NCBI RefSeq assembly: GCF_005938655.1
Contig: NZ_VCQT01000045.1
Coordinates: 1-64,000, forward strand
Source of the DNA: Alloalcanivorax gelatiniphagus
GTDB lineage: Bacteria; Pseudomonadota; Gammaproteobacteria; Pseudomonadales; Alcanivoracaceae
Length of the DNA: 64,000 nucleotides
Direction: 5' to 3'
Shown here: in pieces, positions 3,441 through 59,051 of the stretch
Numbering within the stretch: the stretch's first letter is position 1
Layout: the number at the start of each line of letters is the position of its first letter
Notes under the pieces: generated by a model
What the model was told of the DNA's origin: nothing
Databases searched by the model: none
Seen by the model: only the letters and a program-made list of their open reading frames with translations
Program-made: the position numbers and the translations under genes

Positions 3441-3509
3441 CCCGGCGTTTATGTACCGATACGGAATAACGAGAAAATCCGCCCGGGGTCCGACCACAAA
3501 CAGCGGCGG

Positions 3510-3986
3510 TCAGGCCGGGCGCTTGAGAATCAGGTTCATGCCCTTGAAGCTGGCCACCACCTGGCCGTCCTGATTGACGCTTTCCATTAGCGCGAAGATC
3601 ACGCCCCGGTCCGCCTTCGACCGGGACGGCCGCGCCTCCAGCACGGTGGCGCGCAGGGTCAGCCGGTCGCCGGGCCGTACCGGCCGCAGCCAGCGCACCT
3701 CATCGACCCCCGGCGAGGCCAGCCCGGCCACCTCGGACACATAGTGGTCCACCATCAGACGCATCATCAGGCTCAGGGTGTGCCAGCCGCTGGCGATCAA
3801 CCCGCCGAACGGCCCCGCCGCCGCCGCCTCGGGATCGATGTGCATGGGCTGGGGATCGAAGCGCCGCGCGAACGACAGCAGTTCCTCTTCGTCCACCTCG
3901 ATGGGGCCGAACTCATAGACCGCCCCCTCCGGATAATCCTCGAAGTAGCGGTCGCTTTGCGGCACCGCGAAGGTCGTCACCGCCAT
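3510..3986 (-). CDS. MaoC family (R)-hydratase-like protein
   Basis: 158 residues, a single hot-dog fold of the MaoC dehydratase type. Family members hydrate trans-2-enoyl-CoA or related thioesters. The hydratase motif is recognisable in FARRFDPQPMHIDPEAA (Asp and His about residues 44 and 49), followed by GPFGGLIASGWHT, which is typical of the family. Its substrate cannot be told from sequence. The ATG at 3986 has AGAGAG just upstream. It is divergent from the DUF2254 gene and downstream of the rearrangement scar. Confidence 0.85.
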   Translation of the reverse strand: MAVTTFAVPQSDRYFEDYPEGAVYEFGPIEVDEEELLSFARRFDPQPMHIDPEAAAAGPFGGLIASGWHTLSLMMRLMVDHYVSEVAGLASPGVDEVRWLRPVRPGDRLTLRATVLEARPSRSKADRGVIFALMESVNQDGQVVASFKGMNLILKRPA

Positions 3987-4099
3987 GGTCTCTCTCCGAT
4001 CAGGTGAAAAGCCCGATGATAACGCCCTCCTCCATGGAATAACGAGAGCGGCCGGACTGCGCTATGCTGAACCCGGCGAGAACAAAGGAGCTGGCCCGA

Positions 4100-5359
4100 A
4101 TGTTTTCAAAATGGCAGTGGTGGTTGATGCAGTTTTCCCGGGTCCTGTGGGTGCGCGCCACCGGCTTTGCGATTCTGGCCGTGGGCACTTCGCTGCTGGC
4201 CATCGTCGGCCAGCGCTGGCTGCCCGCCGATCTGCCGGTCACCGTGGGTGCCGACGCGGTGGACACCATTCTCAATGTGCTGGCCTCCAGCATGCTGGCG
4301 GTGACCACCTTCTCGCTGAGCGTGATGGTCAGTGCCTACGGCGCCGCCACCAGCAACGTGACGCCCCGGGCCACCAGGCTGTTGATGCAGGACAGCACCG
4401 CGCACAACGCCCTGGCCACCTTTATCGGCTCGTTTCTGTTCAGCCTGGTGGGGCTGGTGGCCCTCAGCACCGGCGCCTATGGCGAGGGCGGCCGGGTGAT
4501 TCTGTTCCTGGCCACACTGCTGGTGATCGTACTGATCGTGGTCACCATTCTGCGCTGGATCGATCACCTCTCGCGGCTGGGCCGGGTGGGCGAAACCACC
4601 GACCGGGTGGAACAGGCCACCCGCGCCGCCCTGCGGCAGCGCGCCGCCCACCCCAACCTGGGCGGCCACCCCCGGGACCCGCGCCAACCGCCGCCGGCGG
4701 ACGCCCGGCCGGTGTACCCGGATCGCATCGGCTATGTGCAGCACCTGGACGGCGACGCGCTGTCGGAATGGGCGGAGCGCCATGACGCCGATCTTTATCT
4801 GGCGGCGTTGCCCGGGCATTTCACCCATCCGCGCCAGCCCCTGGCCTGGGTGGTCGGCGGCGGCGCCGACATTGAGGCGCCGGTCCGCAAAGGCTTTACC
4901 GTGGACGACGAGCGCACCTTCGACGAGGACCCGCGCTTCGGCCTGGTGGTGCTCTCGGAAATCGCCTCCCGGGCCCTGTCTCCGGCGGTGAACGACCCGG
5001 GCACCGCCATCGACGTGATCGGCCGGTCGGTGCGCATCCTGGCCGAGTGGCGGCGGGTCGGCGAGCAGGCCGCCGCCGAGCGCGGCGGCGAGGCGGTGCG
5101 CCACCCGCGCCTGTGGGTCCCGCCGCTCAACGAGGCGGAGTTCTTCGACGACCTGTTCAACCCGATTGCCCGGGACGGAGCCTCGTTGGTGGAAGTACAG
5201 ATCCGTCTGCAGAAGGCCCTGGCCGCCTTGGCGGAGCTGGGCTTTCCGGAGCCCGCCCGACGTCACGGCCGGCTGGCCCTGGCCCGGGCGGAAGCGGCGC
5301 TGGTGGCGGAGGAAGACAAGGCCAACCTGCGCCAACGGGCGGATTGGCTGGACTCTTAG
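4100..5359 (+). CDS. DUF2254 domain integral membrane protein
   Basis: 419 residues from the ATG at 4100, which has AAAGGAG nine bases upstream. An in-frame ATG at 4064 lacks a good site and is judged spurious. The N-terminal half has about four transmembrane segments (residues about 17-38, 55-85, 110-130, 137-160). The soluble half contains FTVDDERTFDEDPRFGLVVLSEIASRALSPAVNDPGTA, the most conserved part of DUF2254. The family's function is unknown; it is a widespread inner-membrane protein. The gene appears monocistronic and converges on mnmE. Confidence 0.85.
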   Translation: MFSKWQWWLMQFSRVLWVRATGFAILAVGTSLLAIVGQRWLPADLPVTVGADAVDTILNVLASSMLAVTTFSLSVMVSAYGAATSNVTPRATRLLMQDSTAHNALATFIGSFLFSLVGLVALSTGAYGEGGRVILFLATLLVIVLIVVTILRWIDHLSRLGRVGETTDRVEQATRAALRQRAAHPNLGGHPRDPRQPPPADARPVYPDRIGYVQHLDGDALSEWAERHDADLYLAALPGHFTHPRQPLAWVVGGGADIEAPVRKGFTVDDERTFDEDPRFGLVVLSEIASRALSPAVNDPGTAIDVIGRSVRILAEWRRVGEQAAAERGGEAVRHPRLWVPPLNEAEFFDDLFNPIARDGASLVEVQIRLQKALAALAELGFPEPARRHGRLALARAEAALVAEEDKANLRQRADWLDS

Positions 5360-5377: not shown

Positions 5378-6754
5378 CTATTTACCGATGCAGAAAGAAG
5401 AAAAAATGCGGCCGAGCAGATCGTCGGCGGTGAAGGCCCCGGTGATTTCCTCCAGGGCCTGCTGGGCGGCGCGCAGGTCCTCGGCCAGCAGTTCGCCGGC
5501 GGCATGCTGGTGGAGCTGGTCGCGGCCTTTGGCCAGGGCGGCCAGGGCCTGCTCCAGGGCGGTGATATGGCGGCGCCGGGCGGAGAACCGGCTCTGGCCG
5601 GTGCCCTGGTAGCCGGCCACGGCTTTCAGGTGCTCCCGCAGCGCCTCCAGGCCCTCGCCGGTGGCGGCGGACAGGGCGAAGGTATCCGCCGGCGCCGGCT
5701 GGGCGCCCGGCTCCAGGCCGCTCAGGTCGGCCTTGTTGAGCACCCGGGTCACCGGCAGGTCCAGGTGATCCAGCTCCTGCTGGCTGCGCGGCAACAGCGC
5801 CGCCAGATCGGTGAGGTCCACCTCCGGCTCCAGGGAATCCACCACCACCAGCAAACGGTCCGCCTTGCGGATTTCATCGTAGGCCCGGCGGATGCCTTCC
5901 TGCTCCACCCGGTCCGGGCTGTCGCGCAGGCCGGCGGTGTCGATCAGGTTCAGGGGCATGCCGTCCAGCTGGATCGCTTCGCGCAGTACATCCCGGGTGG
6001 TGCCCGCCACCTCGGTGACGATGGCCGCCTCGTGGCCGGCCAGGGCGTTCATCAGTGACGACTTGCCGGCGTTGGGTTTGCCGGCGATCACCAGCGTCAG
6101 GCCCTCGCGTATCAGGCGGCCCTGGCGGGCACTGGCCAGCACCGCGCCGGCCTGGTCGATCACCCCGGCCAGGTCATCCGCCACCCCACCCTCGGAGAGG
6201 AAGTCGATCTCCTCTTCCGGGAAGTCGATGGCCGCTTCCACGTAGATGCGCAACTGGATCAGTTGCTCCACCAGGTTGTTCACTTCCCGGGAGAAGGCCC
6301 CCTGCAGGGAGTTGAGCGCGGCGCGGGCGGATTCCCGGGTGCCGGCGTCGATCAGGTCGGCGATGGCCTCCGCCTGGGTCAGGTCCATCTTGTCGTTGAG
6401 GAAGGCGCGCTGGGAAAACTCCCCGGCCAGCGCCGGGCGGGCGCCGTGGTGCACACAGGCGGCCACCAGGGTATCCAGGATCACCGGCCCGCCGTGGCCC
6501 TGCAGCTCCACCACATCCTCACCGGTGAACGAGCCGGGCGCCGGGAACCACAGCACCAGGCCTTCGTCGATAACGGCCCCCTGGGGGTCACGGAAGCGGG
6601 CGAAATGGGCGGTGCGCGGGGTCAGGGGCCGGTCGCCCATCAGGGCGCCGGCGATGCGGCGGGCATCCGGCCCGGACAGACGCACCACGCCGACACCGCC
6701 CCGGCCGGGGGCGGTGGCGACGGCGACGATGGTATCCGGAGCGGTTAAAGGCAT
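5378..6754 (-). CDS. mnmE: tRNA modification GTPase MnmE
   Basis: Works with MnmG to place the 5-carboxymethylaminomethyl group on the wobble uridine of certain tRNAs. The 458-residue protein has an N-terminal formyl-THF-binding domain beginning [22 protein letters not shown], a helical domain, an inserted GTPase domain (G1 [11 protein letters not shown]3 DTAGLRD, G4 NKAD) and the obligatory C-terminal CIGK. The ATG at 6754 ([11 protein letters not shown]) fits the family start. An ATG 15 codons upstream falls in REP-like sequence and is rejected. It follows yidC on the same strand with a REP-like hairpin between them. Confidence 0.97.
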
Positions 6755-6770
6755 GCTGGAAGTATACGCC

Positions 6771-6849
6771 GTAGGAGCGGCTTTAGCCGCGATAAGCAAG
6801 GCACGCCTTCATGACCTGCTTAGCTGATCGCGGCTAAAGCCGCTCCTAC
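6771..6849. repeat. REP-like inverted repeat pair, copy 1
   Basis: A 23-base unit GTAGGAGCGGCTTTAGCCGCGAT at 6771-6793 faces its exact reverse complement at 6827-6849 across 33 bases. The unit contains its own short palindrome (GCGGCT..AGCCGC). The same unit, with TTC for TTT, recurs at 33973-34030 and 43047-43110. It lies between yidC and mnmE, which read in the same direction. Confidence 0.9.
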
Positions 6850-9299: not shown

Positions 9300-9650
9300 C
9301 CCCTGTAGCCGGTTATTAATAGAATTAAGAATTTAAATTTCTTTTTAGAAGCAGTGGTAGTAATAGGGGAAGGCCATTTCTGTGGAAAACCTGAGAAAGC
9401 CGATATGAATCAACAGCTTGTCATGTTGGTAACTGCCGTATAACTGTGTGTAACCCCTGGTGACGACACGCGGACAGCCTGTCAGTGATTGTGGAACAGA
9501 TCGGTGCACCGGTTTATCCCCAGGGTTTGCGCCCCGGTGGCGCACAGGGTTGTGAGCCTAGTTATCCACAGGGGGAACAAAAAGAAAAACACCGGCCAAG
9601 CTGTGGATAATTGGCCGCCCGGGGGTATAGAATGCAACGTCTTATTTCAT
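9300..9650. other. oriC: Replication origin oriC with DnaA boxes and AT-rich region
   Basis: The region between rpmH and dnaA carries two exact DnaA boxes: TTATCCACA at 9562-9570 and its complement TGTGGATAA at 9602-9610. TGTGGAAAA at 9381-9389 fits TTWTNCACA. One-mismatch boxes are at 9490-9498 (TGTGGAACA) and 9514-9522 (TTATCCCCA). An almost pure A/T stretch at 9311-9346 is the likely unwinding element. This arrangement matches the known position of oriC in Pseudomonas. The box at 9602-9610 is close enough to dnaA for autoregulation. Confidence 0.88.
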
Positions 9651-9672
9651 GTATTCAGGCAAAGGCGGGGAC

Positions 9673-11067
9673 GTGTCCGAGGAGCTTTGGCATCGCTGTT
9701 TGACTCGGCTGGAGGACGAATTGCCTTCGCAGCAATTCAACATGTGGATCCGGCCGTTGCAGGTGGCGGCGTCCGCGGATGGGGGAGAAATGACCCTGTT
9801 CGCGCCCAATCGCTTCGTGGTCGACTGGGTTCGCGACAAATACCTGGAGCGCATTGGCGAGGTGTTGGGTGAGCTGCAGAGCGGTCCCCTGCCCCAGGTG
9901 CGCCTGGAAGTAGGCAGTTCCCGCTCCCGGCCGGCGTCACCGCCGCAGCCCGCCACCACCGCCGTGGCCGAGCGCCGTCCGGCGCCGGTGGTGGAATCCC
10001 GCCCCCGGGCGGTGTCTCCGGAACTGGGCGGCGCCGCCAAACACCGCAGCAACCTCAATTCCAGCTTCACCTTCGTCACCTTCGTGGAAGGCAAGTCCAA
10101 CCGCATGGCCAGCGCGGCGGCCCAGCAGGTGGCCGAGAACCCGGCCAGCCATGGCTACAACCCCCTTCTACTATATGGCGGTGTGGGGCTCGGTAAGACC
10201 CACCTGATGCACGCGGTGGGCAATGAGCTGCAGCGACGCAACCCCAACGCCAAGGTGGTGTACCTGCACAGCGAGCGCTTCGTGGCGGATATGATTTCAG
10301 CGCTGCGCAACAAGACCATCAACGAGTTCAAGCGCTTCTACCGGTCGGTGGACGCGTTGTTGATTGATGATATACAGTTTTTTGCAGGTAAGGAGCAGTC
10401 CCAGGAGGAGTTCTTCCACACCTTCAATGCGCTGCTGGAGAACGGTCAGCAGATCATTCTCACCTGCGACAAGTTTCCCAAGGAAGTGGATGGCCTGGAA
10501 GAGCGGCTGAAAAGCCGGTTCGGCTGGGGCCTGTCCCAGCCCCTGGAGCCGCCGGAGCTGGAAACCCGGGTGGCGATCCTCAAGAAAAAGGCCGAGGAAG
10601 CGCGGGTGGAACTGCCCAACGACGCGGCCTTTTTTATTGCCCAGCGCATCCGCTCCAACGTGCGTGAGCTGGAGGGCGCCCTGCGCCGGGTGATCGCCCA
10701 TGTGCGCTTCACCGGCGCGCAGATCGATATCGGTCTGATCAAGGAGGCGCTCAAAGACCTGATCGCCTTGCAGGCCCGGCAGATCAGTATCGACAATATC
10801 CAGCGGACCGTGGCGGAATACTACAAGATCAAGGTGCCGGACCTGCACTCACCGCGGCGCACCCGCTCGGTGGCGCGGCCGCGCCAGGTGGCCATGGCGC
10901 TTTCCAAGGAGCTGACCAGCCACAGCCTGCCGGAGATCGGCGACAGTTTCGGCGGCCGTGACCACACCACGGTGTTGCACGCCTGTCGCAAGGTGGCGGA
11001 ATTGCGGGAATCCAATCCGGAAATAGAAGAAGATTACCAGAACCTCCTGAGGACCCTGACGTCCTGA
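9673..11067 (+). CDS. dnaA: Chromosomal replication initiator DnaA
   Basis: Binds DnaA boxes and opens the origin. 464 residues from the GTG at 9673. This start is chosen because [18 protein letters not shown] aligns with the known DnaA N-terminus (E. coli also uses GTG) and AGGCGGGG lies just before it; an in-frame ATG at 9649 is too far upstream. Domain I is residues 1-85, followed by a variable Pro/Ala linker. The AAA+ domain carries Walker A GGVGLGKT (169-176) and Walker [10 protein letters not shown]. The C-terminal DNA-binding signature is [12 protein letters not shown]. dnaN follows 29 bp downstream. Confidence 0.98.
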
Positions 11068-11096: not shown

Positions 11097-12197
11097 ATGA
11101 AATTCTCCATCAACCGTGAACAACTGCTCAAGCCCCTGCAGCAGGTGGCCGCGGTGGTCGAAAAACGCCAAACCTTGCCGGTGCTGTCCAATGTGCTGAT
11201 GGAAGTGGGCGACGGCCAGCTTTCCCTCACCGGGACGGATCTGGAGCTTGAGCTGGTGGCGCGGCTGCCTTTGGAGGGTGAGCACCAGGCCGGGGAAACC
11301 ACGGTGCCGGCGCGCAAGCTGGTGGACATCGCCAAGAGCCTGCCGGCGGAGGCGGACATCCGCTTCGAGATGGACGGCGAGCGCATGCTGGTGCGCTCCG
11401 GCCGCAGCCGTTTTTCCCTGACCACCCTGCCGGCGTCGGAATTCCCCAATCAGGATGAGGACAACGCCGGTTCGGTGCTGGAGATCGCCCCGTCCTCCCT
11501 GCGCGACCTGATCGACCATACCGCCTTCTCCATGGCTCAGCAGGACGTACGCTACTACCTGAATGGCATGCTGTTCGAGCTGCGTCCGGGCATGCTGCGG
11601 GCGGTGTCCACCGACGGCCACCGGCTGGCACTGTGTGACGCCACTATGGAAGGCCAGAGCGAAGAGGCCTCGGTGATCCTGCCGCGCAAGGGCGTCATGG
11701 AGCTGGCGCGGATTCTTTCCGACGCCGGCGAGAGCGTGCGCCTGACCCTGGGCCGCAACCACGTTCGTATCATAGCGGGTTCCATTACCTTTACCTCCAA
11801 GCTGGTGGACGGCAAGTTCCCGGAATACGAGCGGGTGATTCCCAAGGACGGCTCCCGGGTAATCCTGGCCGACCGGGAAACCCTGCGCCAGGCCCTGGCC
11901 CGGGTGGCGATTCTTTCCAATGAGAAGTATCGCGGTGTGCGCGTTCAGCTTTCCGAAGGCAGCTTGCGCATCGTCGCCAACAACCCGGAGCAGGAAGAAG
12001 CGGAAGAGGAAGTGTCCGTGGATTTCGACGGCAGCCCCCTGGAAATCGGCTTCAACGTGAGCTACCTGCTGGACGTGCTCAACACCATGGACGGCACCCA
12101 GGCCCGTCTGGAGCTGGGTGACAGCAACAGCAGCGCCCTGGTCACCGATCCGGAGCATGAGGCGGCGCTGTATGTGGTCATGCCCATGCGTCTTTGA
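11097..12197 (+). CDS. dnaN: DNA polymerase III beta sliding clamp
   Basis: The ring-shaped processivity factor of the replicase. 366 residues, the standard length, with three clamp domains. It begins MKFSINREQLLKPLQQVAAVVEKRQTLPVLSN and ends ALYVVMPMRL, the family's conserved C-terminus at the peptide-binding cleft. GGGAAAG precedes the ATG. It lies between dnaA and recF in the canonical order, probably one transcription unit. Confidence 0.98.
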   Translation: MKFSINREQLLKPLQQVAAVVEKRQTLPVLSNVLMEVGDGQLSLTGTDLELELVARLPLEGEHQAGETTVPARKLVDIAKSLPAEADIRFEMDGERMLVRSGRSRFSLTTLPASEFPNQDEDNAGSVLEIAPSSLRDLIDHTAFSMAQQDVRYYLNGMLFELRPGMLRAVSTDGHRLALCDATMEGQSEEASVILPRKGVMELARILSDAGESVRLTLGRNHVRIIAGSITFTSKLVDGKFPEYERVIPKDGSRVILADRETLRQALARVAILSNEKYRGVRVQLSEGSLRIVANNPEQEEAEEEVSVDFDGSPLEIGFNVSYLLDVLNTMDGTQARLELGDSNSSALVTDPEHEAALYVVMPMRL

Positions 12198-12269: not shown

Positions 12270-13367
12270 ATGCTGACCGACCTCAGACTTACCGATTTCC
12301 GCAATTACCGGGAAGCGGAACTGGCGCCCTCCCCCGGGCTGAATCTGATTTTCGGCGATAACGGCAGCGGTAAGACCAGCCTGCTGGAAGCGATCTATTT
12401 TATTGGCAGCGGCGGGCGGTCCTTTCGCGGCGGACGGTTGTCCCGGCTGGTGCGGGATGGCGCCGACGCCGCCACCCTGTTCGCCCGGGTGGCACAGGGG
12501 GACTACGAGCACCGGCTGGGGGTACGGCGGTCGCCGTCGGGGATTGATTCGCTGAAGCTGAACGGCGCCACCCCCGGGGCGCTCAGCGACGTGGCCGCCC
12601 TGCTCCCGGTGCTGGCACTTCACCCCCAGTCCGTGGAGCTGGTTTTCGGGGCCTCCTCGTTGCGGCGCCGATTCATGGACTGGGGAATGTTCCACGTGGA
12701 ACATTCTTTCCTCCCCACCTGGAAGGAAGCCAGCACCGCGCTGAAGCATCGGAACGCCCTGCTCCGCAGCCGGCGGGTCACGCCCCGGGAGCTCACTTAC
12801 TGGGACCAGAAACTGGCGGCGACTTCTGGTAGTATTGAAGGGTTAAGAAGCGGCTATTTGCAGCGCCTGAAAGCCGAGTGGAAAGGCGTGCTCGGCCTGC
12901 TGGCGCCGGAATTGAAGGGTGACCTGACGCTGCAGACCGGCCTTCGGGAGGGGGAATCCTACCTGGAGGCCCTGGCCCGCACCCGCGATGACGATCTGCG
13001 TCGTGGGTTCACTCAAACCGGGTTTCATCGCTCGGAGCTGAAAATCACCGTTGGCGGAACGCTGGCCAGGGACCGGGTGTCCAGGGGCCAGGCCAAGATT
13101 CTGGCCTACGGTCTGGTGTTGGCCCAGCTGCCCCTGATTTCGGAGGCGGGCAAGGTCTGCACCCTGCTGGTGGACGACCTGGGTTCGGAATTGGACCAGG
13201 ACCACCGGGCGACCCTGCTGAGTTTTCTGGCGCGGGGCTCGCACCAAACATTGATTACGGCGGTGGACCGGGAGCAGCTGGGTCCCGCAATGGTAGAAAC
13301 GGGCGAAGCGGCCAGAATGTTCCACGTGGAACATGGTCGCGTTCGGCGGATATCGGACGATCCATAG
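12270..13367 (+). CDS. recF: DNA replication and repair protein RecF
   Basis: An SMC-like ATPase that loads RecA at gaps together with RecO and RecR. 365 residues with Walker A GDNGSGKTS near residue 30, signature VSRGQAK and Walker B LLVDDLGSELD. Two parS palindromes lie in the coding sequence, at 12688-12703 and 13318-13333. Both are read in the same frame, so both yield MFHVEH; the first falls in the conserved DWG.FHVEH block of RecF and the second nine codons before the C-terminal end. gyrB starts 9 bp downstream. Confidence 0.97.
   Translation: MLTDLRLTDFRNYREAELAPSPGLNLIFGDNGSGKTSLLEAIYFIGSGGRSFRGGRLSRLVRDGADAATLFARVAQGDYEHRLGVRRSPSGIDSLKLNGATPGALSDVAALLPVLALHPQSVELVFGASSLRRRFMDWGMFHVEHSFLPTWKEASTALKHRNALLRSRRVTPRELTYWDQKLAATSGSIEGLRSGYLQRLKAEWKGVLGLLAPELKGDLTLQTGLREGESYLEALARTRDDDLRRGFTQTGFHRSELKITVGGTLARDRVSRGQAKILAYGLVLAQLPLISEAGKVCTLLVDDLGSELDQDHRATLLSFLARGSHQTLITAVDREQLGPAMVETGEAARMFHVEHGRVRRISDDP
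12688..12703. promoter_or_regulatory. parS: parS site 1 (ParB binding)
   Basis: Perfect 16-bp palindrome TGTTCCACGTGGAACA, the form of the chromosomal parS centromere used in Pseudomonas. It lies 3 kb from oriC inside recF, where it encodes the conserved MFHVEH residues. ParB would load here for chromosome partition. parA and parB are not in the window. Confidence 0.92.
13318..13333. promoter_or_regulatory. parS: parS site 2 (ParB binding)
   Basis: A second identical copy of TGTTCCACGTGGAACA, 630 bp from the first, at the 3' end of recF. It is not in a conserved part of RecF, so the site itself rather than protein sequence is likely the constraint. Confidence 0.92.
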
Positions 13368-15791
<2,424 letters not shown>

Positions 15792-53883: not shown

Positions 53884-55593
53884 ATGTTGAATACCAAAGT
53901 TTGGCTTGTCCCGGCTTTGCTGGGGGGGATGCTGGCGGGCTGTGGGGGCTCCGACAGCGATCATCACGGCGGCGACCCGGCGGCCGAGGCCGAGTCCTTT
54001 CACTATGTGGAAGGCACCATTGCCCAGGCCCGCGCGGCGCTGGGGGCCGGTGAACTGACCTGTGAGGAACTGGTTCAGGGTTATCTGGACCGGATCCAGG
54101 CCTACGACCGCCAGGGCCCCAGTCTGCAGAGCGTGATCGCGGTGAACCCCTACGCCCTGGATCAGGCCCGGGATCTGGACGAACGCTACGCGATGGACGG
54201 CTTCCAGGGCCCGCTGCACTGCGTCACGGTGCTGCTCAAGGACAACTTCGATACCTTCGACATGCCCACCACCGCCGGTGGCCTGGCGCTGGAAACCAGC
54301 CAGCCGCCGGATGATGCCTTCAGCGTGGCCCGGCTGCGCGATGCCGGCGCCATCATTATCGGCAAGGCCAATCTGGACGAATACGCCTTCGGCTTCCGGG
54401 GCAGCAGCTCCGTGGGTGGCCAGGTGCGCAACGCCTACGATCCCAGCAAGGGCCCGGGTGGTTCTTCCTCGGGCACCGGTTCCTCCATCGCCGCCAGCTT
54501 CGCCATGGTCGGCACCGGCTCCGACACCGGCGGCTCGATCCGCGTGCCGTCCAGCCTGCACGGCCTGGTGGGCATCCGCCCGAGTCTGCGGCTGATCAGC
54601 CAGGACGGCATCGTGCCCCTGGCCCACTGGCAGGATACCGGCGGCCCCATGTGCCGCACCGTGGAAGACTGCGCCCTGACCCTGGGCGCCATGGTCGGCT
54701 ACGACCCGGGGACTTCTTCCGGCCAGCGTTTCCGCTTCGATCACGACGCGGACCTGATGGCCAGCCCGTTCGAATACCAGCTCGCCACCCTGGCGCCGTC
54801 CAGCTACACCAAGTACCTGGACAGTGCCGCCCTGAAGGGCGCGCGCATCGGTGTGGTTCGGGATCTGTTCGGTGACGGCCAGGGCGAGAACGCCGAGGTG
54901 CAGCGCGTGATCGAAGTAGCCCTGGATCGGATGCGCGCCGCCGGCGCCACCGTGGAGGACGTGACCATCCCGGATCTGAGCACCGTTCTCAGCGACTATC
55001 GCAGCGTGTCCCGCTATGAGTTCAAAACCAACCTGACCGAGTATCTGGCGTCCTGGCCGTCCACCACCGACGGGCACCCGCGCTCCTTTGACGAGGTCTA
55101 TCAGAGCGGTGGCTATGAGGAACGCAATGCCGGCACCTTCGCGTTCTATGACAGCGCCGGCACGGATCTGGAAAACAACGCGGACTACCTGAAAAACATC
55201 AACGAGCGTCCGGACTATGTGCGCCAGCGTTTTCTGGCCGCCCTGGAAAACATCGACGCCAGTGGCCGGTCCGCCGGGGAACCCTACGACGTGCTGCTCT
55301 ACCCCTCGGTGCTGAGCCTGGCCCCGGACGTGGGCGGCTCCCCCAGCGCCGGCAGCAACAACCGGCTCAGCCCGTTCTCAGGCTTCCCGGCGCTGTCCAT
55401 GCCGGCGGGCATGGCGGACACCGACCCGGCACTGCCGGTGGGCATGGAAATGCTGGCCCGGGAGTTCGACGAGGGCACTCTGATCAAACTGGCCTACGCC
55501 TATCAAGAGCTGGCCAAGCCCCGTCAGGCGCCCACCTTTACGCCGGAGTTGGAAGAACAGCCGGTATCGGCGGTGACGTCGCTGATCCACTGA
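53884..55593 (+). CDS. Amidase-signature lipoprotein
   Basis: 569 residues. A lipoprotein signal ends MLAGC (Cys20), followed by an acidic/His linker, so the enzyme should face the periplasm or cell surface. The amidase-signature triad is present: Lys119 in LLKDNFD, cis-Ser in GGSSSGTGSS and Ser218 in GSDTGGSIR. Family members hydrolyse amides; the substrate is unknown. CTGGAGAAA lies before the ATG. It has no operon partner. Confidence 0.9.
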   Translation: MLNTKVWLVPALLGGMLAGCGGSDSDHHGGDPAAEAESFHYVEGTIAQARAALGAGELTCEELVQGYLDRIQAYDRQGPSLQSVIAVNPYALDQARDLDERYAMDGFQGPLHCVTVLLKDNFDTFDMPTTAGGLALETSQPPDDAFSVARLRDAGAIIIGKANLDEYAFGFRGSSSVGGQVRNAYDPSKGPGGSSSGTGSSIAASFAMVGTGSDTGGSIRVPSSLHGLVGIRPSLRLISQDGIVPLAHWQDTGGPMCRTVEDCALTLGAMVGYDPGTSSGQRFRFDHDADLMASPFEYQLATLAPSSYTKYLDSAALKGARIGVVRDLFGDGQGENAEVQRVIEVALDRMRAAGATVEDVTIPDLSTVLSDYRSVSRYEFKTNLTEYLASWPSTTDGHPRSFDEVYQSGGYEERNAGTFAFYDSAGTDLENNADYLKNINERPDYVRQRFLAALENIDASGRSAGEPYDVLLYPSVLSLAPDVGGSPSAGSNNRLSPFSGFPALSMPAGMADTDPALPVGMEMLAREFDEGTLIKLAYAYQELAKPRQAPTFTPELEEQPVSAVTSLIH

Positions 55594-55629
55594 TCCATCG
55601 CGGTTAGCCGTGTCGGGCGGCGCCGGTGC

Positions 55630-56178
55630 TCAGCCGGCGCTGCCCTGCTTTTCCATCATGTCGGCCTGCAGAATTTCGATCCAGTAGCCGTCCGGGTCCT
55701 TGATAAAGGCCAGGCCCTTCATGCGGCCGTCGTCCGGCTTCTTAACGAACTCCACCCGCAGTTTTTCGAACCGTTCCGCGGCGGCGTAAACATCCGGCAC
55801 CGTGATGCCGATATGGCCGAAGCCCTGGGGTTCATCGTTGCCATTGTGATAGCGGAAATCCCCATCCTCCTCGGTGCCCCAGTTATGGGTCAGCTCCAGC
55901 ATCGCCTCGCGGCTGAAGGTGTAGGTGAGACGCTTGGCGTCGTCCTCGGGCACCTCGGTGGCCTCGGTGTCGTTCAGATAGGTGAGGAAATAGAGGGTGA
56001 ACTTTGCTTCCGGAAAGTCCAGCTTGCGGATCAGACGCATACCCAGCACCCGGGTATAGAAATCCAGGCTGGTGGCCGGGTCCTTGATGCGCAGCATGGT
56101 CTGGTTGAACAGGTAGGACTGGGTTTCGCGGTCCGGCTTGTCGCACAGGCCGGGGGCGGATTCGAAATGGCGGGGCAT
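55630..56178 (-). CDS. gloA: Lactoylglutathione lyase (glyoxalase I)
   Basis: Converts the hemithioacetal of methylglyoxal and glutathione to S-lactoylglutathione. 182 residues from the ATG at 56178 with GAGGAAG before it. It is the longer type (N-terminal extension plus [21 protein letters not shown]), which in other bacteria and eukaryotes is zinc-dependent. Metal ligands fall in [10 protein letters not shown] and [11 protein letters not shown]. The C-terminal block is [16 protein letters not shown]. Confidence 0.95.
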
Positions 56179-56322
56179 GGCTACTTCCTCTTCGGGGTCG
56201 CGGGGGGTCATGGTAAAGAACGCGGCGTTTGATGAGTCTGGCGGAAAGTGATTTTCACGGCGACCAGAGTCTGTATGTGAGTGCTTGCTTACATTGGGAA
56301 AATGTTTAGATTTTGCTGAAAA

Positions 56323-57966
56323 CTACGGTTTAGACATTCGCCAAGTCTTGCCTTCAACTTCTATAAGTCCTTGATATTTAAGACTCTGCAACAGGTTTCG
56401 GATCTTGTTTGCCTTCTGCTGTTCGTCTAGGACATCCGGCAGTTTGTCTAGCAGGAGCCGATCAATATCCGCTCGTTTGGCTTGACCGAACTGCCCGATA
56501 TATTCGCAGATCAGCTGACGGTAGTGTTTGTCGTCGAAGCCACGGTTGCGAATATAGTCGGCTTTATCGCCACTCTTCCTGGCAACTGTCGCGGAAATAT
56601 GAAGATTGGGTCTTCTGCCTTCGATGAGGCCCTGTTGCTTAAGGTGCCTGATTTGCTCCGCACTCAGAGGCTTACGTTTCTGCACGCGGTCCAGAAGGAT
56701 AATGTCGTTCAGTGAGAGGGCGGGCAGTTCCGCCAGCTTTCGAGCGTAATCCAGGTCCAGCACACGACCGGTGATGGTTACTTGCACTCTGCCTTCGTCA
56801 AGCTGGTACTCGGGAAGAGGAAAGAAGCGGTTCTTTTGGGTCACGAACATCTTTCGAATACCACTGCCGATGGTATCGATCATATTCAGGTTGACCATGG
56901 CTTCCGCGAGAAAGGGGTTCCGATACCGGCTTTCGGGCGCGTCGGAATGTATGACCTTCTCCACGGTTCCCGGTATAAAGCTGCCGGGGTTGCTGAAGCA
57001 CAGGCGGTTGTCTTCAAATTCAATAACCGTGATCTTGCCACCAAGCTGATAGTCCTGGTGGGCAATGGCGTTATTGAGCGGCTCTCGAATCACGAAAGGG
57101 TCGTATTGATCCACCTCCTCGGGAAACAAACTTCCTTCGGCGATATATCGATACTTCAGATTACGAATCTTCCTGTAGGCCTGGTTGGCATTGACCAGCA
57201 AAGGACAGGAGAAGTGCTCATAATCCTTCTCTATACCGTCCCTGTCTTTCAGAATCCATGTGAGGATCGGTGTGGCGGGGTTGAGAAAATGGGAGGCTTC
57301 CTGTTTGCCCAGCAGCAAAATGGCCGTTCGCGTTACCTGCCCCTGGATGGTTATCTTGGCTTTGTTAAGAAACGTGCGGTCGTCCCATTCGTTAATTTGG
57401 TTGGCCAAGCGGGGATTTTTGGTAGTGAACTCCCGGCGCGCCAATGAAATTGCTTCCGGGTCCAGGTCATCCAATGTGGCCCCTTCACAGATCCCGGCGC
57501 TCCAGTCACACACTCTGTTCTGATTCCGAATGCGTTCAATTTCATCCAGGGAAAGCGGCCCCAATGAAGCACCATCGCGGCCAAAGTAATGACCTTCCCA
57601 ACTGACCGGGATGCCCTGCGGTGCGGCGGGAATCTCCATGAGCAATACCCGCCCCGCGGGGTGTTCAACATCATGGATATCGGTAAAGGTGTGGCGGTTG
57701 GTGGTTTTGTCGGCAACCTCCTTTTTCAGCGATTGCAGTGCCCTGTGGTTGTCTCTGAAGTGAGTGCCCACCACCTTATGGTCATCCCGCACGCCAAAAA
57801 CCAGCCAGGCGGAATCGTTGCCTTTCAGACTGGCTTCGTTGCTTAGAGCGGAGAAATATCTCCCGAGTTTCCCAAAATCAAACGCCCTCCGGGCTTCCTT
57901 GAATTCGACGATTTCGTTCTCGCCATCACCATCAAGTAGGGCCTGGAGTCGTTGCTCGGGAGACAT
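56323..57966 (-). CDS. AlbA_2/Schlafen-type ATP-binding protein with winged helix
   Basis: 547 residues. An N-terminal AlbA_2 (divergent AAA/Schlafen-like) domain (ENEIVEFKEARRAFDFGKLGRYFSALSNEA, SAWLVFGVRDDHKVVGT) is followed by an ATPase-like region (REPLNNAIAHQDYQLGGKITVIEFEDNRLCFSNPG, DTIGSGIRKMF). The winged-helix C-terminus (AKRADIDRLLLDKLPDVLDEQQKANKIRNLLQSLKYQGLI) is shared with proteins often found near restriction and defence genes. Base composition is visibly lower in GC (single lines count near 43-53%) than its neighbours, so recent transfer is likely. A solitary defence or regulatory gene; function unknown. Confidence 0.85.
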   Translation of the reverse strand: MSPEQRLQALLDGDGENEIVEFKEARRAFDFGKLGRYFSALSNEASLKGNDSAWLVFGVRDDHKVVGTHFRDNHRALQSLKKEVADKTTNRHTFTDIHDVEHPAGRVLLMEIPAAPQGIPVSWEGHYFGRDGASLGPLSLDEIERIRNQNRVCDWSAGICEGATLDDLDPEAISLARREFTTKNPRLANQINEWDDRTFLNKAKITIQGQVTRTAILLLGKQEASHFLNPATPILTWILKDRDGIEKDYEHFSCPLLVNANQAYRKIRNLKYRYIAEGSLFPEEVDQYDPFVIREPLNNAIAHQDYQLGGKITVIEFEDNRLCFSNPGSFIPGTVEKVIHSDAPESRYRNPFLAEAMVNLNMIDTIGSGIRKMFVTQKNRFFPLPEYQLDEGRVQVTITGRVLDLDYARKLAELPALSLNDIILLDRVQKRKPLSAEQIRHLKQQGLIEGRRPNLHISATVARKSGDKADYIRNRGFDDKHYRQLICEYIGQFGQAKRADIDRLLLDKLPDVLDEQQKANKIRNLLQSLKYQGLIEVEGKTWRMSKP

Positions 57967-58039
57967 CGAAAGATCTCCTTGTTGGTTTGGTTATCGTGTT
58001 CCGGACCAAAAGTCCTCACGGCGCATCAATGTCAAAACT

Positions 58040-58100
58040 CCGCTCAGGGCTGATTCCCAGCCCGCGCTCAGGGCTGCTTTCAAAACCCCGCTCAGGGCTG
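58040..58100. repeat. Three copies of a 13-base unit at exact 24-base period
   Basis: CCGCTCAGGGCTG (58040-58052), GCGCTCAGGGCTG (58064-58076) and CCGCTCAGGGCTG (58088-58100). The last copy contains the stop codon of the SPFH gene. The 24-base spacing keeps frame, and each unit carries TGA in the gene's own frame. Confidence 0.85.
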
Positions 58101-59051
58101 AGTCGCGTCGATCTTCTTGAGCACTTTCTGCAGGCCGGCCACGGTGCCGCCCACGTCGCTGAGGTTGGAGGGCAGCAACAGGGTGGTGGATTCCTTGGCC
58201 AGTTTTTCGAAGGCGGCCACGTATTGTTCGGCGATGCGCAGGCTCACTGCTTCGTCGCCGCCGTCCTGCTGGATGGCGCGGGCCACTTCGCTGAGGCCGG
58301 TGGCGGTGGCCTGGGCCAGCAGTTCGATCTGGCGGGCGCGGCCTTCGGCTTCGTTGATCTGCTTGAGCTTTTCCCCTTCGGAGATGTTGATCATCTCCTG
58401 CTTCTCACCTTCGGAGCGGTTAATCGCCGCCTGGCGGTCACCCTCGGAGCGGTTGATGGCGGCCTGGCGGTCGCCCTCGGATTCCGCCACCACGGCGCGC
58501 CGTTCCCGCTCGGCGCGGACCTGCTTCTCCATGGCGTCCTTGATGGAGGCCGGCAGGTTGATGTCGGCCACCTCGTAGCGGAGTACCTTGACGCCCCAGG
58601 GTTGGGCCGCCTCGTCCACCGCCTGGACCACTTCCATGTTGATCTCGCCGCGTTCCTCGAAGGTTTTGTCCAGGTCGATCTTGCCGATCACCGAACGCAG
58701 GGTGGTCTGGGCCAGTTGCTGGGCCGCCATCACGTAGTCGTCGACACCGTAGCTGGCCGCCTTGGCGTCGATCACCTGCAGGTACATGACACCGTCCACG
58801 GAGACCTCGATGTTGTCCTTGGTGATACAGCTCTGGCGCGGCACGTCACGGACGATTTCCTTGAGCGAGTGCCGGTAGGCGACCCGGTCGATGAACGGCA
58901 CCAGCACGTGCAGGCCGGCTTCCAGGGAGGTGCGGTATTTGCCCAGCCGTTCGACCACGAAGATCTGCCGCTGCGGCACGATGCGCACGGTCATGAACAG
59001 CAGAATGATCACGCCCAGGGCAAGCAGCACCGGAATAATGAGTCCCATCAT
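58092..59051 (-). CDS. SPFH/stomatin-like membrane protein (QmcA type)
   Basis: 319 residues. An N-terminal membrane anchor (about 3-24) precedes a band-7 domain (VPQRQIFVVERLGKYRTSLEAGLHVLVPFIDRVAYRHSLKE, DAKAASYGVDDYVMAAQQLAQTTLRSVIG). A coiled coil (about 175-260) contains tandem 11-residue repeats: SEGDRQAAINR twice, then SEGEKQEMINI, SEGEKLKQINE and AEGRARQIELL. It pairs with the upstream NfeD-like gene 18 bp away; such pairs form membrane microdomain complexes. Confidence 0.93.
   Translation of the reverse strand: MMGLIIPVLLALGVIILLFMTVRIVPQRQIFVVERLGKYRTSLEAGLHVLVPFIDRVAYRHSLKEIVRDVPRQSCITKDNIEVSVDGVMYLQVIDAKAASYGVDDYVMAAQQLAQTTLRSVIGKIDLDKTFEERGEINMEVVQAVDEAAQPWGVKVLRYEVADINLPASIKDAMEKQVRAERERRAVVAESEGDRQAAINRSEGDRQAAINRSEGEKQEMINISEGEKLKQINEAEGRARQIELLAQATATGLSEVARAIQQDGGDEAVSLRIAEQYVAAFEKLAKESTTLLLPSNLSDVGGTVAGLQKVLKKIDATQP

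Follow-up and report, generated by a model that had tools for sequence, protein, structure and literature searches.

Paired parS-type palindromes inside recF: a probable chromosomal centromere under selection at the DNA level within a protein-coding gene

Two of the chromosomal parS sites of Pseudomonas aeruginosa, parS1 and parS2, reside within recF itself (PMC5521831, PMC3909081). The original prediction for the locus described here had stated that centromere sites occur near oriC in Pseudomonas coding DNA, and this literature agrees. The recF pair reported below is a further case of this known kind, one in which the pair makes up the whole set of exact sites. In related studies, ChIP-seq showed P. 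aeruginosa parS1 through parS4 to be bound by ParB in vivo, with enriched regions of more than 20 kb (PMC5098823), and any one of the four was enough for segregation (PMC4368675). Unlike the genome studied here, P. aeruginosa has strong sites parS3 and parS4 within 16 kb of oriC as well as six weak sites (PMC4368675). For Caulobacter, another report describes a hot spot of transposon-borne parS insertions, for which no explanation was given, that spans recF, gyrB, and the gene after them and is separate from the native parS cluster (PMC5815017). In the recF passages of five papers (PMC5521831, PMC3909081, PMC5815017, PMC8743542, and PMC3901652), a natural parS in recF is mentioned only in the first two, both on P. 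aeruginosa.

The sites recognized by Bacillus Spo0J and Caulobacter ParB are likewise 16-bp palindromes clustered near oriC, and the cognate ParB proteins have an HTH domain. We know of no parS host gene that is fixed across the Bacillus and Caulobacter-type groups. The host gene and both codon positions examined here are conserved over an order and over much of a class.

The window, by which we mean the whole 64-kb stretch of DNA that was analyzed, carries the gene order dnaA, dnaN, recF, gyrB. The features relevant to our analysis are as follows.

9562-9570, + strand: DnaA box TTATCCACA, exact match
9602-9610, - strand: DnaA box TTATCCACA, exact match
9649..11067, + strand: dnaA, identity from sequence
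11097..12197, + strand: dnaN, identity from sequence
12270..13367, + strand: recF, ORF of 365 aa, host gene of both sites
12688..12703, no strand assigned: parS-type site 1, TGTTCCACGTGGAACA, encoding F-H-V-E-H, RecF residues 141-145
13318..13333, no strand assigned: parS-type site 2, TGTTCCACGTGGAACA, encoding F-H-V-E-H, RecF residues 351-355, 16 codons before the gene end
13377..15791, + strand: gyrB, directly 3' of recF, identity from sequence

The recF assignment is based on a TIGR00611 recF match (E 2e-93) and a Pfam RecF/RecN/SMC N-terminal domain, and the protein shares 94% identity with its counterpart in Alloalcanivorax marinus NMRL4 (Alcanivoracaceae, Gammaproteobacteria per NCBI). 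A scan of recF for promoters and terminators found none. We take TTATCCACA to be the DnaA box motif, and the interval 9562..9610, just 5' of dnaA, is taken as the oriC region.

A motif scan of the window located TGTTCCACGTGGAACA exactly twice, with both copies inside the recF ORF, 630 bp apart start to start, and 3.1 and 3.7 kb from the DnaA boxes, in agreement with the placement, spacing, and oriC distance originally predicted. Both copies are read in one frame (TG TTC CAC GTG GAA CA), and with their flanks the stretches of identity between them cover 20-21 bases. The 64-kb window holds no further site at three or fewer mismatches. When up to three mismatches were counted, 3 of 100 shuffled sequences yielded at least two matches; the real sites have 0 mismatches. 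Throughout the draft genome (4,215,373 bases in 50 contigs), the only exact copies of TGTTCCACGTGGAACA are the two in recF. This genome search, proposed earlier as a check on chance occurrence, compares 2 exact copies with about 0.0005 expected (computed with an assumed genome GC of 0.64; the measured window GC is 0.653), and chance was rejected as the origin of the pair. Allowing two mismatches adds one site, on contig C4, which is uninformative because a backward control pattern also gives 3 sites at this laxity; with exact matching, the control gives 0. Both copies match the 16-bp palindromic consensus TGTTYCACGTGRAACA, and their overrepresentation and proximity to oriC are those of chromosomal parS sites. 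As a side observation, the palindrome flanks give ATG on both strands and hence long antisense ORFs, 12749-11034 (-) and 13334-12843 (-), which contain or begin with MFHVEH and are a hazard for annotation.

Both recF sites of P. aeruginosa likewise lie near oriC, at a distance of a few kb (about 4 kb in PAO1), and they are the same 16-mer: parS2, a perfect palindrome, is identical, and parS1 ends in C (PMC4368675). Two genomes in our comparison (G105 and G188, family f21) carry, at the compared positions, the PAO1 variants in PAO1 order, TGTTCCACGTGGAACC followed by TGTTCCACGTGGAACA, 630 bp apart. We consider it very probable that the two 16-mers constitute a chromosomal parS centromere at which ParB is loaded. 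If they act as such sites do in P. aeruginosa and model systems, each palindrome would be bound by a ParB dimer, which would close to a CTP-dependent clamp and spread over adjacent DNA, and two sites 630 bp apart would give rise to a single partition complex beside oriC. ParA would move newly copied origin regions apart, and SMC would probably be loaded at the partition complex. Such sites can sit in recF because ParB reads DNA, and a coding sequence is no obstacle to it. RecF in return would have to keep F-H-V-(E/K)-(H/Q/P) at both places. As to why recF was used, it may be enough that the gene is close to the origin, has long been kept beside dnaA and dnaN, and encodes a protein tolerant of both peptides.

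The same genome encodes SMC and, on contig C39, has mnmG, rsmG, parA, and parB in one row. ParA and ParB were assigned by family search, and rsmG and mnmG were named from sequence. The position of parB is as follows.

3484-4401 of locus L293 (contig C39), - strand: parB, ParB family match

This arrangement resembles that of P. aeruginosa, in which parAB lies downstream of gidB (rsmG). The parB gene is about 19 kb from the C39 end; should C39 and C40 be adjacent, oriC would be about 28 kb away from it. In a relative whose genome is a single contig (G019), parB is about 30 kb before the numbering end and recF is at 2.7 kb; the corresponding distance between par genes and oriC is about 7 kb in PAO1. 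An mnmE-like gene (window 5378-6799, named from sequence) is not followed within the window by the mnmG-rsmG-parA-parB row, which instead adjoins an ATP synthase a-subunit-like gene and would be about 20 kb from the mnmE-like gene if the contigs adjoin.

The ParB protein, which is the sole TIGR00180 match in the genome, matches solved ParB structures including those of the Bacillus Spo0J and Caulobacter type. Counting from its GKSR motif, we assigned residues S172, R173, N178, G201, and R204. A specificity study identifies R173 and G201 as parS-type residues and Q173 and R201 as those of the Noc type (PMC7383237), and the protein examined here carries the former and not the latter. It has His where the DNA-contacting Q162 of Caulobacter ParB stands, a position occupied by His in 18 and by Gln in 13 of the 31 ParB proteins compared, our own included (17 of the 30 others, all from the order-level sample, share His). 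These residues bear on the proposal that a different DNA-binding protein recognizes the palindromes, for example a transcription regulator or an occlusion factor of the Noc type. CACGTG palindromes do serve other regulators elsewhere; however, the sequence is that of a site shown to bind ParB in P. aeruginosa. Moreover, Noc-binding sites (NBSs) differ at two positions, and neither the NBS bases at these positions nor the residues Q173/R201 were found, the latter being absent from the only ParB encoded. Another binding protein was thus rejected as a full explanation, and we regard it as highly improbable.

The centromere reading was next set against the distribution of the sites in relatives. 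At least one exact site is present in 42 of 46 genomes of the family, exactly two are present in 40, and none has more; the backward control gave 0 in all 46. One of the four family members lacking an exact copy, G040, carries site 1 and site 2 in versions that each have a single mismatch. At the order level, RecF was searched in 194 genomes, and the loci of the 150 best listed matches were taken, which together with the window form 151 rows not chosen by motif. Adding the family loci yields 177 rows from 37 families, of which 26 rows come from 29 own-family loci chosen by motif, such that all 177-row counts include motif-chosen rows. At three or fewer mismatches, both sites are found in 126 of the 151 non-motif-chosen genomes and in 35 of 37 families (152/177 in all rows). 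Site 2 is always in the same frame (135/135 non-motif-chosen rows, 161/161 in all rows), and the distance between the sites in the order sample ranges from 621 to 684 bp and is always a multiple of three. A full match to TGTTYCACGTGRAACA at both sites occurs in 86 of the 151 non-motif-chosen rows.

Genome-wide, one or more consensus sites occur in 170 of the 194 genomes, compared with one site each in 3/194 for the backward control, and a ParB match is present in 190 of the 194. For 152 genomes, one of them a motif-chosen row, a recF locus could be set beside a genome-wide site count; 214 of their 260 TGTTYCACGTGRAACA sites are in recF, and 80 of the 152 genomes have exactly two consensus sites, both in recF. 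For many members of the order, reading recF is a cheap way to make a first guess at the centromere. This location is dispensable, because families that have lost sites from recF (f27, both sites in 7/7 genomes; f38, site 1 in 6/6; f6, site 1 in 5/6) have a ParB match in every one of these genomes. Separately, genomes of family f37 (G081, G216, G172, G145, and G196) have four to seven consensus parS sites each, and the first three of these have lost recF site 1; the centromere of this family may have spread to other places. One further genome has a third exact parS 47 bases past site 2, measured start to start (G091:C65:47360-47375).

The comparison among relatives also speaks to the idea that the two sites are merely recF repeats kept alike by gene conversion, with no present role. 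The copies are identical over 20 bases in the source genome, 88 of 152 two-site genomes carry the same 16-mer at both places, and C/T changes at position 5 tend to occur together at both sites (8.9 versus 0.3 independent pairs, median p 0.006). Nevertheless, conversion tracts so short are not expected, the sites differ at positions 5/12 in 38 of the 152 two-site genomes, and the pair persists in nearly all families sampled, as given above. Shared base composition can account for the joint C/T drift, and gene conversion would not explain why the parS consensus has persisted in full. It was rejected as a full explanation, and we attach very little credence to it.

The original prediction suggested selection on the DNA at the second site and proposed an alignment of recF across relatives to see whether codon choice is frozen at both. 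The alignment shows selection on the DNA at both sites, with codon choice frozen at each. Codons were counted where the peptide is FHV in the 151 non-motif-chosen rows, and expectations were derived from the codon usage of each gene. GTG encodes the valine without exception, in 129/129 rows for site 1 and 133/133 for site 2, where 52 and 53 are expected; glutamate is GAA in 109/109 and 105/105 (55 and 53 expected); and histidine is CAC in 127/129 and 131/133 (60 and 63 expected). The third base of the Phe codon is the sole synonymous parS position that accepts C or T, and there the C:T ratio is 91:39 at site 1 and 78:57 at site 2. TTC is nonetheless above expectation (90/129 versus 46 at site 1, 77/133 versus 48 at site 2), and this base is free but not neutral. 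Note that z-values from these counts are not probabilities, as the sequences are related; the codon result holds over 34 families for site 1 and 36 for site 2.

Codon entropy gives the same picture. Of the 83 alignment columns in which RecF conserves an amino acid with more than one possible codon (177 rows), the six lowest entropies are those of His, Val, and Glu of both sites, whereas the Phe columns have ordinary entropy (ranks 12 and 24 of 83). With the 151 rows and 88 columns, the five lowest are Val353, Val143, His352, Val140, and His142. The last two bases of the Val140 codon are the first two of parS, and Glu leaves the lowest-entropy set because Lys often replaces it. The locus thereby contains a built-in control, in that the free synonymous base of parS varies and the others are fixed.

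These findings must be weighed against the view that the 16-mers are by-products of a protein motif, with FHVEH functionally required at both RecF places. The original prediction had placed site 1 on conserved FHVEH codons, and this stands for F-H but not for V-E-H. Site 1 is absent from 21 of the 177 genomes. W-G survives in all 21 of these and F-H in 18, but V-E-H has gone from every one, with V found once and E once; W-G is looser where site 1 is retained (131/156). At the corresponding place, E. coli RecF has F-H-N-E-P, with E-P kept and V not. The claim that site 2 lies outside any conserved protein block proved wrong, because an F-x-V-x-x-G motif near the C-terminus is conserved: 15 of the 16 genomes without site 2 have [FY]-x-[VLM]-x-x-G, and E. 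coli has F-T-V-E-K-G. A protein requirement could account for these retained residues at the two places. However, it does not account for synonymous bases frozen far above codon usage, for a V-E-H that disappears together with site 1, or for the histidine codon of site 1, where CAC is used by 154 of the 156 genomes that have the site but by 3 of the 19 that keep His and lack the site (Fisher p 8e-18, with related sequences treated as independent). We therefore judge a purely protein-level constraint very unlikely and rejected it as a full explanation. The "conserved FHVEH" is in part a DNA imprint, and caution is needed before taking it as a functional motif of RecF.

Replacements of the glutamate point in the same direction. 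Lys stands in its place in 20 of 156 site-1 copies and 28 of 161 site-2 copies, and on the tree the two residues have interchanged on at least 9 occasions for site 1 and at least 18 for site 2 while the DNA remains a good parS, contrary to what a required protein motif would predict. The change from Glu to Lys converts TGTTTCACGTGGAACA to the full palindrome TGTTTCACGTGAAACA, and in raw counts it is strongly associated with a T at the mate position (odds ratios of 14 and 26). GC3 is alike in the two groups, at 0.47-0.49 for T..G genomes and 0.47 for T..A genomes. On independent tree pairs, the co-change is not significant (3.4 versus 0.1 and 4.7 versus 0.2, with median p of 0.25 and 0.125). 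The direction fits a co-change that would preserve the palindrome, although the tree test alone is no proof of this. If the parS reading is correct, the mechanism is ordinary, and the locus offers an unusually clean example of centromere DNA shaping a protein, wherein a mechanical DNA element would have dictated, through a long span of evolution, residues of a repair protein that is unrelated to it.

Beyond the order, a site-1 pattern with the W upstream, TGGNNNNTGTTYCACGTGRAAC, occurs in 209 of 369 genomes and 159 of 272 genera of the class, compared with 0 for the backward control; this pattern is too strict, and 209/369 understates site 1. A set of 59 class loci was hand-picked among the listed pattern matches, which means that site 1 is present by choice and only the site-2 count is informative. 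RecF was found in 56 of the 59, and 47 of these 56 have site 2 at three or fewer mismatches; one of the nine without it (L309) covers the locus only in part. Thirty pattern-negative genomes were hand-picked from the class and phylum samples, 13 without a RecF match over the family cut-off and 17 with RecF. Both sites are present in five of these 17, with another upstream context or first base, and in one more with two mismatches in site 1. Six have site 2 only, at no more than one mismatch, three have site 2 with two or three mismatches, and two have neither site in frame. One of these last two (G361; locus L368, about 1923-1938) has lost site 1 but carries GGTTCCACGTGGAACA in recF, 23 bases downstream of it and in another frame, reading G-S-T-W-N, and this is possibly a re-made site.

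In the phylum sample, the pattern is found in 49 of 378 genomes (42/127 within the class, 7/251 outside it), and TGGGG is in none of the 7 outside-class matches. A search for named loci found 78, of which 27 were inspected; because it used motif-bearing peptides, its results serve as examples and not as frequencies. Loci with both sites include those of Alcanivorax jadensis, Endozoicomonas sp., Luteimonas, Pseudohongiella, and Halomonas beimenensis, and in Thioalkalivibrio denitrificans site 2 alone is present. Neither site is present at the named locus of Ectothiorhodospira magna or at nine loci whose affiliation is uncertain or lies outside the class (Actinomycetota, Ktedonobacteria, Alphaproteobacteria, and a Proteobacteria MAG).

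ParB is present in 347 of the 369 class genomes, and the site-1 pattern occurs in at least 204 of these 347, versus 3 of the 20 that are named among the 22 ParB-negative class genomes; two of the three exceptions are genomes that are 63% and 77% complete. This association also argues against another DNA-binding protein, but it is supportive only, because some ParB-negative genomes also lack recF.

The 3' end of recF in E. coli MG1655 (L214) has, at the place homologous to site 2, the sequence TGTTTACCGTGGAAAA, which with three mismatches to the consensus is the best match in the gene; the next-best parS-like match has five. At the same place, three genomes of family f227 have TGTTCCGCGTGGAACA, TGTTCACCGTGGAAAA, and TGTTCCGTGTAGAACA. 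These sequences may represent decayed copies of site 2, which is the weaker part of our case: protein descent alone yields some likeness, and the E. coli control genome does give some TIGR00180 match. One report describes Enterobacteriaceae as being without par genes (PMC3909081), and TGTTTACCGTGGAAAA points to the place in such genomes where centromere relics could be sought. We lean modestly toward a broader reading in which most of the class Gammaproteobacteria had the recF pair as ancestral centromere and the pair wrote two RecF peptides while ParABS was in use, with lineages that dropped a site or the system keeping remains such as MFTVEKG... of E. coli, encoded around TGTTTACCGTGGAAAA. 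If this reading is true, the protein-signature motifs of RecF in the class Gammaproteobacteria would in part be centromere fossils.

Elsewhere in the window, GC falls to about 0.53-0.58 across 55000-59000, around an ORF at 56323-57966 (-). We take this ORF to resemble an AlbA-type ATP-binding regulator, possibly acquired.
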